Source: Tateyamaria omphalii
GTDB taxonomy: Bacteria; Pseudomonadota; Alphaproteobacteria; Rhodobacterales; Rhodobacteraceae
NCBI RefSeq assembly: GCF_014651375.1
Contig: NZ_BMWT01000005.1
Span: 1-64,000, forward strand
Direction: 5' to 3'
Length of the DNA: 64,000 nucleotides
Made by a program: the position numbers and the translations under genes. The stretch's first letter is position 1, and each line of letters starts with the position of its first letter. The notes under the pieces were generated by a model. That model did not search any database, had not been told where the DNA came from, and saw only the letters and a list, made by a program, of their open reading frames with translations. Of the stretch, positions 31,239 to 55,264 are shown piece after piece.

Positions 31239-31712
31239 ATGCACCGCTCGTGCCATCGGGCGTTCTTTGCACTGGTTTTCTGTTTTTTTGCGCAAGCAGT
31301 TGCAGCAAAGTGCAATGACGCGACGGTTTGGCTTCGGGGTGAGTTCGGTTCGGCCCGGTTTAACGTTGAGATCGCCGATACCAATCGAGAGCGGGCCATT
31401 GGGCTGATGAACCGACCGTCCATGGCTGCGAGCGAAGGGATGCTTTTCGTCTACCCCCGGCCTCAACCATTGTCGTTCTGGATGAGAAACACCCTGATCT
31501 CGCTTGATATGCTGTTCCTTGATCCGACCGGAACCGTAACCAAGATTCATCACGAGGCCGTCCCACTGGATGAAACACCGATTCCCGGTGGGGACGGACT
31601 CACTCACGTTCTCGAAATCAATGGCGGGCTGGCCCGTATGATGGGGATTCAAGAGGGGACGCAGATGCGACACCCCAGCTTTGATCAAGATATCGCTGTT
31701 TGGCCCTGTTGA
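31239..31712 (+). CDS. DUF192 family secreted protein
   Basis: A 157-residue protein with a signal peptide (HRAFFALVFCFFAQAVA) and a DUF192 domain, recognisable by RAIGLMNRPSM, GMLFVYPRPQPLSFWMRNTLISLDMLF and LEINGG. The function of the domain is not established. Start at 31239, 2 bases after the cold-shock gene, giving a probable two-gene operon before the tRNA. Confidence 0.85.
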   Translation: MHRSCHRAFFALVFCFFAQAVAAKCNDATVWLRGEFGSARFNVEIADTNRERAIGLMNRPSMAASEGMLFVYPRPQPLSFWMRNTLISLDMLFLDPTGTVTKIHHEAVPLDETPIPGGDGLTHVLEINGGLARMMGIQEGTQMRHPSFDQDIAVWPC

Positions 31713-31767: not shown

Positions 31768-31844
31768 CGGAGCGTGGCGCAGCCTGGTAGCGCACCTGTT
31801 TTGGGTACAGGGGGTCGGAGGTTCGAATCCTCTCGCTCCGACCA
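31768..31844 (+). tRNA. tRNA-Pro (UGG)
   Basis: A 77-base cloverleaf with acceptor stem CGGAGCG/CGCTCCG, discriminator A and an encoded CCA end. The anticodon stem is CCTGT/ACAGG and the anticodon TGG is at 31802-31804. The T arm has GGTTCGAATCC. All parts are intact. Confidence 0.97.
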
Positions 31845-52096: not shown

Positions 52097-52654
52097 ATGC
52101 GTCCGATCATTGTCTGTCTTTTAGCTATGTTTTCCACCCAACCTGCGGGCGCTCAAATCTTGCAGGGGAAGATCATTCAGCAAATCGGCTCTGGTCAGTT
52201 CGTGCTGTTGGACACGGATGTGCCGTTCGCCGTCGGTGCAGACACGTTCGACGATGACAACCTCTATGGTTTTGACGAAGACCAGAACATCACGTTGGTC
52301 GAACCCATTCGGGTCGACATCGGCAACGAACAGGGGTGGATACCTGCAGGCACAATCGTTGCAAGCCACTATGTGTTCTTTGACAGCCTGTCCGGCATTC
52401 ATACAGGCTACGTCGATTTTGATGCGCCGATCCTTGGGGTCGCGGCGTTTCAGGGTACGATGGCGGCAACGGATTTTCTGGCAAATACCGGCGTAACTTA
52501 TCTGAGCACCGAGTTACGGGGTTTAGAGCAGGGCGACTATGTCTGGATAGATGAGAACCTGCCCAGTCGATTATGGGTTTACTGGGCGGGATCATCACCG
52601 GGCGACTATGTCCGCGTCTTCACCGAGGAATCAAAAGGCGCGCTGCTGATGTAG
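52097..52654 (+). CDS. Secreted hypothetical protein
   Basis: A 185-residue protein with a signal peptide (MRPIIVCLLAMFSTQPAGA) and an acidic, beta-rich mature part with Gly and Asp turns. I do not recognise a domain, and it has no cysteine in the mature part. It lies 84 bases after the HNH gene on the same strand and converges on xthA, 21 bases away. Confidence 0.65.
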   Translation: MRPIIVCLLAMFSTQPAGAQILQGKIIQQIGSGQFVLLDTDVPFAVGADTFDDDNLYGFDEDQNITLVEPIRVDIGNEQGWIPAGTIVASHYVFFDSLSGIHTGYVDFDAPILGVAAFQGTMAATDFLANTGVTYLSTELRGLEQGDYVWIDENLPSRLWVYWAGSSPGDYVRVFTEESKGALLM

Positions 52655-52675: not shown

Positions 52676-53458
52676 TCAGGCGACCAGATCGACCCATACC
52701 GGCACATGGTCCGACGGTTTTTCTTCGCCCCGCACGGCCTTGTCGATCTGGCAGTCCGTCATCAGGTCGGCACAGTTCGGGCTGAGCAGGAAGTGATCGA
52801 TGCGAATGCCGTCATCCTTGTTCCATGCACCTGCCTGGTAATCCCAGAATGAATAATGTCCCGGCACAAGGCTGCGTACGCGGAAGGCTTCGGTCAGCCC
52901 CAGATTCTGTAAGCGCCGGAAGGCTGTGCGGCTTTCAAGTCGGAACAACGCGTCGTCGCGCCAAGCATCTGGTCGCTTTGCATCTTCGGCCTGCGGAATG
53001 ATGTTGTAGTCACCGGCCATGAGAAAGGGCGTTTCTTCGGCCAGAAGCGCGATCGCCCTTTGGCGCAGCCGTTCCATCCACGCCAGCTTGTAGTCATATT
53101 TCGGTCCGGGCACAGGATTGCCATTGGGCAGGTACAGGCCACACAGACGCACCGCCTGAGTGTCACCCATGACCGTCGCCTCAATATAACGGGCCTGTTC
53201 GTCCTCATCGTCGCCGGGCAGGCCACGTGTTACGTCCTCAAGTGGCAGCTTCGACAGGATGGCCACCCCGTTGAATGACTTCTGGCCGTGTGTTTCGACG
53301 TTGTAGCCCCGATCCTCAAACAGCTCGCGGGGGAAGTTTTCATCAATCGACTTGATTTCTTGCAACAGCACAACATCCGGATTTGCCGCATCCAACCAGC
53401 GCGGCAGAGCTTCGATACGGGCTTTGATGCCGTTGATGTTGAAGGTGGCGATTTTCAT
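52676..53458 (-). CDS. xthA: Exodeoxyribonuclease III
   Basis: A 260-residue AP endonuclease/3' exonuclease of base excision repair. The catalytic motifs are MKIATFNINGIKAR, LLQEIKS with the metal-binding glutamate, GDYNIIPQ and the C-terminal PSDHVPV. Start at 53458 (MKIATFNINGIKAR). It shares its upstream region with the repeat-protein gene; a LexA-type site lies 191 bases before its start. Confidence 0.95.
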   Translation of the reverse strand: MKIATFNINGIKARIEALPRWLDAANPDVVLLQEIKSIDENFPRELFEDRGYNVETHGQKSFNGVAILSKLPLEDVTRGLPGDDEDEQARYIEATVMGDTQAVRLCGLYLPNGNPVPGPKYDYKLAWMERLRQRAIALLAEETPFLMAGDYNIIPQAEDAKRPDAWRDDALFRLESRTAFRRLQNLGLTEAFRVRSLVPGHYSFWDYQAGAWNKDDGIRIDHFLLSPNCADLMTDCQIDKAVRGEEKPSDHVPVWVDLVA

Positions 53459-53547
53459 AATAGTCCCCGTTTTGACCGCTTCGTTTGTCTCGCGCATCCG
53501 AGGGCTTTGGGCAAGACCCCAAGGCCGGGCGCGGCAAGTGTCGCAAA

Positions 53548-53563
53548 TTAACTATTTCTTAAC
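53548..53563. promoter_or_regulatory. CtrA-binding site (perfect TTAA-N7-TTAAC)
   Basis: TTAA-CTATTTC-TTAAC is an exact match to the alphaproteobacterial CtrA consensus. It lies 90 bases before xthA and 257 bases before the repeat-protein gene. Confidence 0.7.
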
Positions 53564-53631
53564 TAATCGATTCGGGCTAGTGTCGGGGAATTGCAAGCTG
53601 CAATACAGGAAAATCACAGCAAAAACAGGGC

Positions 53632-53640
53632 TGTGGATAA
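53632..53640 (+). promoter_or_regulatory. DnaA box 1
   Basis: TGTGGATAA, the exact complement of the TTATCCACA DnaA box. It ends 8 bases before the LexA-type site. Confidence 0.6.
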
Positions 53641-53648
53641 GAAAATTT

Positions 53649-53663
53649 GTTCCAAAAATGTTC
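53649..53663. promoter_or_regulatory. LexA/SOS-type box in the repeat-protein promoter region
   Basis: GTTC-CAAAAAT-GTTC matches GTTC-N7-GTTC, the same motif as at lexA in this window. It lies 157 bases before the repeat-protein start. Confidence 0.75.
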
Positions 53664-53708
53664 TGGGTTGAAGCCGGGGGCGTGCAAGCGCTTCTATGCT
53701 TTTCCTTA

Positions 53709-53717
53709 TGTGGATAA
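53709..53717 (+). promoter_or_regulatory. DnaA box 2
   Basis: A second exact TGTGGATAA in the same orientation, 77 bases after the first, in an AT-rich stretch before the repeat-protein gene. Confidence 0.6.
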
Positions 53718-53819
53718 CCTTCGGGCAACTCTCCTTTAGCAAGAATTTTCCTTTTGAAAATCGCCTTTAACGGGCAACGCTTTGGTCACCACAACCAAAA
53801 GATGAAAGGGGAAGCTGCT

Positions 53820-54161
53820 ATGACGGCTCAACGCAAAACACAATTCGTTCTGGACACCGCTTCGATCAGTGGTCTGCATTCCGGGGAAGGGGTCGAAATG
53901 TTCTCGACCAGCAGTGCGCCGATGGCGCGGGACACTCTGATGGGCGACGGCGTTCATATGTTCTCGACCAGCAGCGCACCGTCTGCGGGGAATGTGATTG
54001 CCGGTGACGGGGTCGAGATGTTTTCAACAAGCAGCGCACCGGTTGCGCGCGAAACGGTGGCTGGCGACGGTGTCGAGCTGTTTTCGACCAGCAGTACGCC
54101 GGCGCAGACAGGTGCAGTCATGCAGGGTGAGCTGACAAATCTGTTCTCGTCAGGGTCCTGA
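53820..54161 (+). CDS. Tandem 20-residue repeat protein (FSTSS repeats)
   Basis: A 113-residue protein I do not recognise. A 21-residue leader (MTAQRKTQFVLDTASISGLH) is followed by four repeats of exactly 20 residues, each of the form GDGVEMFSTSSAP plus 7 variable residues, at 53883-54122, then a partial fifth (QGELTNLFSSGS). The pattern of leader plus uniform cores recalls multi-core peptide precursors, but no modification enzyme of a known class (YcaO, ATP-grasp, lanthionine) is nearby. No signal peptide or cysteine is present. A ribosome binding site GAAAGGGG precedes the ATG. The partner gene starts 47 bases later. Confidence 0.8.
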   Translation: MTAQRKTQFVLDTASISGLHSGEGVEMFSTSSAPMARDTLMGDGVHMFSTSSAPSAGNVIAGDGVEMFSTSSAPVARETVAGDGVELFSTSSTPAQTGAVMQGELTNLFSSGS

Positions 54162-54208: not shown

Positions 54209-55264
54209 ATGTCAAATGTCATTGAACTGAACGTCCCGCCGCGCCGACAGCGCCTGACCGAACGGGCAGGTGGATTGATCGATCTTTTTGCAACGCACCG
54301 CAGGCACCCGGATGATGTGTTCTGGCTGAAAGAAAATGCCGAGCTTCTAGGCATTCTGGAATGTACCGGCACGGAAATCGATGCGGACGCGTTGTTACCC
54401 CATGGGGACTTTTACAAAGGGCTGTCCGAACGGCTGCAGTTCTTTCCACAATACTATCGCTTCCTGTTGTCCATCGGCATGGACCTGGAAGACCTGGGAC
54501 TGCCGGGAACGCAGATGGAAAGCCTGTGTCAGTGGGTTGCGCGCCAACGCTTGCCGGAGGCAGAGCTGAGTGATTTGCAACGGGCGGAGGCGCGGCGCCT
54601 GTTGGCGCGTCGCGGTGTCAATTGTAGCGCCGCTGATCCCGGGTTGGATGACCGCCTGCGCGGGTTCATTGCCCGGCCCGAAACATTTGCGCTGCCCAAC
54701 AAGAAGGCCGCCTACGAGCTGACGCATATCGTTTTTTATTTGTCCGAGTACGGGCGCCGCGATCCATGTCTGGATGCGGCAACCCTGCAAAGCCTCGAAT
54801 ATTTAGGGATTCTGGCCTATCTGGATCAGAACATCGACTTGCTGGCCGAGGTCTGTGTCGCATTGCGGCAGGCTGGAAAGGCACCGAGTGCCATCTGGGT
54901 GGAAGCGGTGCGCCGGTCCATGTCCGGCTTCCGGATTGTAGAAGACCTATCCGGGACAGCATCAGACGATTATCACGAATACCTTGTGGCGTCCTGGGCG
55001 GTGCAGGTTCTTGGCTTGGAGGGCACGGGATGCCCGCTGCCCGAAGGGCGGGCTGTCTTTCAGCCAAGCGCCCAACATCCCAGCGCATTGCGTCCGGTCT
55101 CTGCGGCTTTGCTTGCCGCATCCGAGATGCGCAGCTGCGATTGGGGGCACATGTGTGACTATGTTTTTGATCTGCTGGATGACGATGCCGGACTGGTCTT
55201 GGAAACGACCATTGCGTCGACCACTCAGTTTCAGCCTTTTTTCGAACTGTTCGCGCGCGCCTGA
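54209..55264 (+). CDS. Conserved-looking helical protein of unknown function, partner of the repeat protein
   Basis: A 351-residue, mostly helical soluble protein I do not recognise. A central segment YELTHIVFYLSEYG (169-182) followed by DQNIDLLAE (206-214) resembles a helix-bundle motif I have seen in other proteins of unknown function, where the histidine and acidic residues look functional. Cysteines are at 52, 107, 139, 187 and 216, with more near the end. No ATP-binding or radical-SAM motif. It begins with AGGGG upstream, is codirectional with the repeat protein, and ends 3 bases from the convergent erpA-like gene. Same operon as the repeat protein is inferred. Confidence 0.75.
   Translation: MSNVIELNVPPRRQRLTERAGGLIDLFATHRRHPDDVFWLKENAELLGILECTGTEIDADALLPHGDFYKGLSERLQFFPQYYRFLLSIGMDLEDLGLPGTQMESLCQWVARQRLPEAELSDLQRAEARRLLARRGVNCSAADPGLDDRLRGFIARPETFALPNKKAAYELTHIVFYLSEYGRRDPCLDAATLQSLEYLGILAYLDQNIDLLAEVCVALRQAGKAPSAIWVEAVRRSMSGFRIVEDLSGTASDDYHEYLVASWAVQVLGLEGTGCPLPEGRAVFQPSAQHPSALRPVSAALLAASEMRSCDWGHMCDYVFDLLDDDAGLVLETTIASTTQFQPFFELFARA

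Follow-up and report, generated by a model that had tools for sequence, protein, structure and literature searches.

The region analysed here, positions 53459..53819 of a 64,000-nucleotide stretch of the Tateyamaria omphalii genome (the window), comprises the 361 bases between two divergent genes. On the minus strand lies xthA, encoding exodeoxyribonuclease III (52676..53458; TIGR00195, 235 bits against a cut-off of 182.55; Exo_endo_phos), and on the plus strand lies a gene for a 113-residue multi-copy repeat peptide (53820..54161), followed on the same strand by a gene for a DUF6902 protein (54209..55264). A sequence-only reading of the window had placed four motifs and a small inverted repeat between them, and all of these are present and exact: on the plus strand, a CtrA-type site, TTAACTATTTCTTAAC (TTAA-N7-TTAAC, 53548..53563), two DnaA boxes, both TGTGGATAA (53632..53640 and 53709..53717), the second in the same orientation and 77 bp after the first, and a LexA-type site, GTTCCAAAAATGTTC (GTTC-N7-GTTC, 53649..53663); and the inverted repeat ATTGCA-AGC-TGCAAT (53590..53604). 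We found a further conserved element upstream of the DnaA boxes that was not on that list, GATTC (53569..53573, plus strand), a GANTC site of the type methylated by CcrM.

A single match to such motifs means little, because the genome-wide counts of the DnaA box and the CtrA-type site are about those of reversed-pattern controls: 29 versus 26 for TGTGGATAA, which is barely above, and 26 versus 32 for TTAA-N7-TTAAC, which is no excess. Within the window, TGTGGATAA occurs three times against 0.21 expected, and the two copies described here are the only ones no more than 600 bp apart in the 4.75-Mb genome, in which 0.017 pairs within 100 bp would be expected. We aligned 20 orthologous xthA/repeat-gene intergenic regions of 344-374 bp, 19 of them from Tateyamaria, and judged the alignment by eye. 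Both DnaA boxes were kept in most of these regions, standing out from diverged surroundings.

To look across the family, we studied 97 loci, namely the window, the best 80 of 307 relatives, a choice that under-samples divergent members, and 16 more, which were taken from the lower part of the family list of DUF6902 matches plus a few from above. For 87 of these loci, motifs were counted in the 420 bases that begin at the xthA start; the ten loci without a usable xthA start were excluded. Exact TGTGGATAA was found in 64 of the 87 regions (shuffle mean 0.19 regions, maximum 2) and at least twice in 38; with up to one mismatch allowed, 75 regions had a box and 66 had at least two. The boxes were conserved in position as well as in sequence. 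A pair, defined as two boxes on the same strand, 50-90 bp apart and with no more than three mismatches in total, was present in 67 of the 87 regions, with a spacing of 75-77 bp in 51, 52-54 bp in 12, and 66 or 87-88 bp in four. The upstream regions, at 360 nt each, total 31.3 kb and contain 104 exact boxes; the remaining 982 kb of the same loci contain eight, or 3.3 versus 0.008 per kb. The DnaA pair is thus well beyond chance. In the group with 52-54 bp spacing (L161, L165, L172, L173, L181, L182 and L186), several regions carry a further DnaA-type box, inverted, immediately ahead of box 1, and TTAAC repeats follow box 2.

The GANTC site is also conserved. It aligned as GATTCG in 19 of the 20 regions, and among the regions with a box pair, all 17 from Tateyamaria (shuffle mean 5.3) and 49 of the 50 others (shuffle mean 15.7) had a GANTC upstream of box 1 at a distance of 10-110 nt. 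GANTC density was 7.1 per kb in the upstream regions versus 0.8 in the rest of the loci and 1.2 in 207 other intergenic gaps, the latter called by a crude open reading frame (ORF) rule. In the window, where GANTC is scarce (56 found versus 254 expected), the control region holds one; four others fall within 107 bases at 31544-31650, about 120 bases before a tRNA-Pro gene (31768-31844). The CtrA-type string, found once in the window versus 0.05 expected, was kept in most of the aligned regions by eye. TTAA-N7-TTAA was present in 23 of the 87 regions (shuffle mean 0.72, maximum 5), of which 14 were among the 17 from Tateyamaria versus nine among the 70 others, where its positions differed. The CtrA-type site is therefore beyond chance mainly within Tateyamaria. 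The earlier claim that replication and cell-cycle motifs come together at this place and belong with the downstream unit is borne out, since they recur with it across the family, and the conserved GANTC strengthens it; among the motifs that relatives had been expected to share, the DnaA boxes held across the family and the CtrA-type site mainly within the genus, and the LexA-type site did not hold.

The main interest is what this control region governs. The repeat protein begins with a leader of the type MTAQRK and carries four FSTSS units and a C-terminal FSSGS; its Pfam matches were sub-threshold only, and NCBIfam gave none. By script, DUF6902 has a repeat protein of two or more units beside it in 95 of the 97 loci, and L201 has one by eye, making 96; no precursor was found by script in L196. 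Copy number per precursor ranges from 2 to 17, these counts being minima for several loci that start inside the repeat gene; the gene in L165 runs into masked letters. An MTAQRK-type leader motif was found by script in 70 of 95 precursors. As judged from its sequence, the protein has the make-up of a ribosomal precursor with putative leader and core, as expected of a ribosomally synthesized and post-translationally modified peptide (RiPP).

We located units by their spacer rather than by their core, which gave 590 units in 87 precursors after eight of the 95 with fewer than three such units were dropped; L206 has two MMCCS units, neither of which is spacer-anchored. At core positions +2 to +5, identity was.98/.93/.91/.95 within a precursor and.41/.70/.38/.54 between precursors. 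There were 27 modal pentapeptides, such as FSSGS, FTSGS, FTSWS, FSTSS, FTSGL and FTTSM. The core was uniform in 67 of the 87 precursors; the 20 non-uniform ones include the window, with its four FSTSS and one FSSGS, and L186, which was counted there only through a stray anchor. Between units, the ratio of nonsynonymous to synonymous differences (pN/pS) was 0.15 at +2 to +5 (pS 0.53) versus 0.43 at -5 to -1 (pS 0.62), omitting the anchored G and F, and 0.12 versus 0.39 with both included. With synonymous differences this numerous, the low core ratio indicates that the cores are old copies kept alike. The core can also change throughout a precursor from one close relative to another: the seven units of L137 all read FTSGS, the six of L138 all read FSSGS, their codons differ, and the two DUF6902 genes are 90.8% identical. 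Uniformity of the core inside a species, with variation from one species to the next, suggests a matching partner, such as a signal receptor, that recognises the product.

The second protein of the unit matches PF21843 (DUF6902) at 500.4 bits (cut-off 27) and also the DUF6895 profile, PF21836, at 85 bits (cut-off 23.8), and is a putative peptide-modifying enzyme. Its structure model has a pLDDT of 93.7. Foldseek gave no match to this model at E<=0.001, and a second look showed alpha/alpha-toroid structural neighbours; LanC-type cyclases were absent among the 50 entries listed, which proves nothing. A sequence search of the PDB returned one chance match only (E 1.2). DUF6902 proteins share conserved H173 and Y255-H256 motifs, and look-alikes were seen by eye in DUF6895 genes outside the family. 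Two DUF6895 genes outside Rhodobacteraceae scored over the cut-off and were used, two below it being left out; each of the two used has a small ORF close by that carries an L-x-G-[PR]-W-[YF] motif. One of them stands at L274:2119-7714 near a one-core small ORF, a major facilitator superfamily transporter, an O-methyltransferase and a papain-like C70/C39-type peptidase; from its gene content, this looks like another RiPP-type cluster. The other, at L275:5952-7916, is beside a small ORF with two G-x-E-L-x-G-P-W-[YF] copies.

In most of the 97 loci, xthA lies upstream of the unit, and an iron-sulphur A-type gene, an HD phosphohydrolase gene and argS lie downstream; we take the HD phosphohydrolase gene to be dgt. 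An EamA-type permease gene follows DUF6902 on the same strand in 56 of the 97 loci, or 56 of the 80 outside Tateyamaria, its identity having been confirmed as Pfam EamA in four of four tested. DUF6902 was found in 69 of 248 family genomes and, among 289 genomes drawn from the class, over the cut-off in three, all Rhodobacteraceae. Among the open-access titles and abstracts listed on these families, on epimerases, on multi-core precursors in Rhodobacteraceae, on RiPPs of Ruegeria and Phaeobacter and on repeat pheromone precursors, none described the operon.

Taken together, we read the operon, with moderate confidence, as RiPP-like and multi-core, and the intergenic region as its control region and replication and cell-cycle promoter, an arrangement shared by many marine Rhodobacteraceae. 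The product is probably a modified peptide made in step with the cell cycle, as far as motifs and protein families can tell. DnaA at the box pair, CcrM and GcrA through the methylation state of GANTC and, in Tateyamaria, CtrA would time transcription. The box spacings of 53, 66, 76 and 87 bp differ very roughly by multiples of a helical turn, an arrangement that, as a guess, would let bound proteins make contact by looping the DNA. The repeat protein would serve as a precursor, an N-terminal leader followed by many near-identical pentapeptide cores; DUF6902 would modify the cores, with epimerisation as the lead candidate; a peptidase would free them; and the EamA permease encoded next to the unit in many relatives would export them. 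A bolder version of this proposal, which we offer tentatively as a possibility with the odds against it, is a replication-clocked peptide language of Rhodobacteraceae, in which each species would produce its own pentapeptide in many copies per precursor, a DUF6895-related alpha/alpha-toroid enzyme would alter it (for example by introducing a D-residue), a permease would export it, and DnaA, CcrM and CtrA would set the point in the cell cycle at which this pheromone-like product is made. Two observations weigh against this mechanism: 12 of the 87 regions have no box within one mismatch, and a relocated module (L199) and two divergent ones (L196 and L197) lack DnaA boxes.

One alternative is a repeat protein that is never cleaved and acts as a multivalent scaffold or decoy, its motif binding DUF6902 or another partner. 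In keeping with this, no peptidase was detected by Pfam or NCBIfam among the neighbours scanned around the operon, and an adjacent EamA permease is found in 0 of the 17 Tateyamaria loci. A binding motif would likewise be uniform within a species. We consider this unlikely, however, as 73 to 75 of 95 precursors, depending on the rule used, end exactly at a core, the permease adjoins the unit in more than half of the loci, and DUF6895 genes stand near other small peptide ORFs in the two cases described above, one DUF6895 protein being called a lasso-peptide epimerase in the title of its report (Shi et al., ACS Catal. 2026).

A second alternative concerns the boxes rather than the peptide: they might mainly form a DnaA titration or reactivation site (datA- or DARS-like) for replication timing, with the operon incidental. 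Consensus DnaA boxes with fixed spacing and a nearby GANTC resemble replication-control DNA, and the relocated module in L199 lacks boxes, as this alternative would allow. The only other place in the genome with TTAA-N7-TTAAC and TGTGGATAA less than 100 bp apart is C7:24484-24520 (L084, L108), and by eye the sequence near it resembles a plasmid partition (ParA-type) gene. On the other hand, the boxes are mostly oriented one way, towards the peptide gene, and a timing site should persist where the module is missing, whereas no box was present in any of 25 regions upstream of xthA in relatives regarded as unit-free. Nor does this count give any sign that the motifs act on xthA. The 25 regions came from 30 genomes, five having given a partial gene or a distant paralogue; the genomes were chosen for lacking a DUF6902 match, some because they were not among the matches listed, and one (G019) for an absent repeat protein. 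The control is weak, because in L212, the only one read by eye, the intergenic region is missing altogether along with the module. The site is also not the replication origin: in G184, a single contig of 4.32 Mb, dnaA is at position 16 and the module at 2.57 Mb, so that the two are 2.57 Mb apart in one direction and 1.75 Mb in the other. The GC skew of this genome, sampled at 20 points, was noisy; most values were positive up to about 2.0 Mb and most were negative beyond it, with a change near 2.1 Mb. On balance, we regard a titration site as quite improbable.

The sequence-only reading had assigned the unit to a gene transfer agent (GTA) programme controlled by CtrA and LexA. The CtrA-type site in Tateyamaria would agree with this, and in Dinoroseobacter shibae, GTA and related genes have predicted CtrA and LexA sites (PMC6473078). 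The LexA part of the claim fell, however, and the GTA part found no support in what the analysis covered. GTTC-N7-GTTC occurs five times in the window versus 2.02 expected, which is at chance level, since seven of 100 shuffles reach five copies, and it was found in three of the 87 regions (shuffle mean 1.28, maximum 5); in the alignment the spacing held in three of 20 (L001, L002 and L009). We accordingly judge the site at 53649..53663 to be a chance match, and LexA or SOS control was rejected for want of conservation in orthologous promoters. The unit consists of the repeat peptide, DUF6902 and, in relatives, the EamA permease, amid the neighbours named above, and its distribution in the family is patchy. 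DUF6902 had no PHROG match and the repeat protein had two weak ones only (E about 6e-4), to PHROGs of unknown function, so that neither protein shows phage-type homology; the search covered these two, and GTA genes elsewhere in the genome were not searched. Membership of such a programme is highly implausible. Equally remote is the idea that the whole motif cluster is coincidence, for which the raw genome-wide counts of single motifs would speak but which the family-wide conservation of the DnaA boxes and GANTC, and their spacing, contradict, leaving it to hold for the LexA-type site.

The RiPP-like operon that we favour has partial counterparts among known systems. Dikaritins and borosins are made from multi-core precursors, and the likeness here is a leader with many copies of one short core split by spacers; here, however, the system is bacterial, its core is mostly without Cys, and an alpha/alpha-toroid-type protein takes the place of the maturases known for those classes. 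The fungal dikaritins, borosins and the like are among the RiPP classes named in PMC9233826. The DUF6895 lasso-peptide pathway named by Shi et al. is similar in that DUF6902 matches the DUF6895 profile and DUF6895 genes also lie near small peptide ORFs. It differs in that the precursor here is multi-core, epimerisation is only a candidate, and no lasso cyclase or B-type protease was found by Pfam in the nine window ORFs around the operon, ORFs further off not having been scanned.

On the regulatory side, promoters of Caulobacter and other alphaproteobacteria controlled by CtrA, DnaA, GcrA and CcrM (PMC2877005) use the same motif vocabulary of DnaA box, GANTC and CtrA site, whereas here the motifs would control a peptide operon, and the box pair is fixed at 75-77 or 52-54 bp. 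Dinoroseobacter shibae, with its quorum sensing-CtrA-LexA network and the predicted CtrA sites at communication and GTA genes (PMC6473078), is a roseobacter model; here the LexA-type site is not conserved, the unit contains no GTA gene, and the product would be a peptide, not an acyl-homoserine lactone. The promoter could serve to test whether DnaA acts as a transcription factor outside Caulobacter, and the operon brings a candidate enzyme family together with a multi-core precursor whose short, variable core makes the product easy to predict and synthesise. If the proposal is right, marine bacteria would couple their replication state to a peptide that may be secreted and specific to each species.

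Some smaller features of the locus were also recorded. The inverted repeat at 53590..53604 is shared at most by the closest relatives, by eye, and is not beyond chance. Beside xthA, a 185-residue ORF at 52097-52654 of the window had no Pfam or NCBIfam match. Rfam gave no known RNA leader in the stretch, its one match being sub-threshold and on the opposite strand. By eye in the alignment, a candidate hairpin, TTTGGG...CCCAAA, precedes the ribosome-binding site of the repeat gene. Also by eye, a conserved leader block together with the ribosome-binding region of this gene occupies 53765..53812 on the plus strand; it is of the type GCAA-CG-T...GGG-ATC-CAAC and may form a hairpin.
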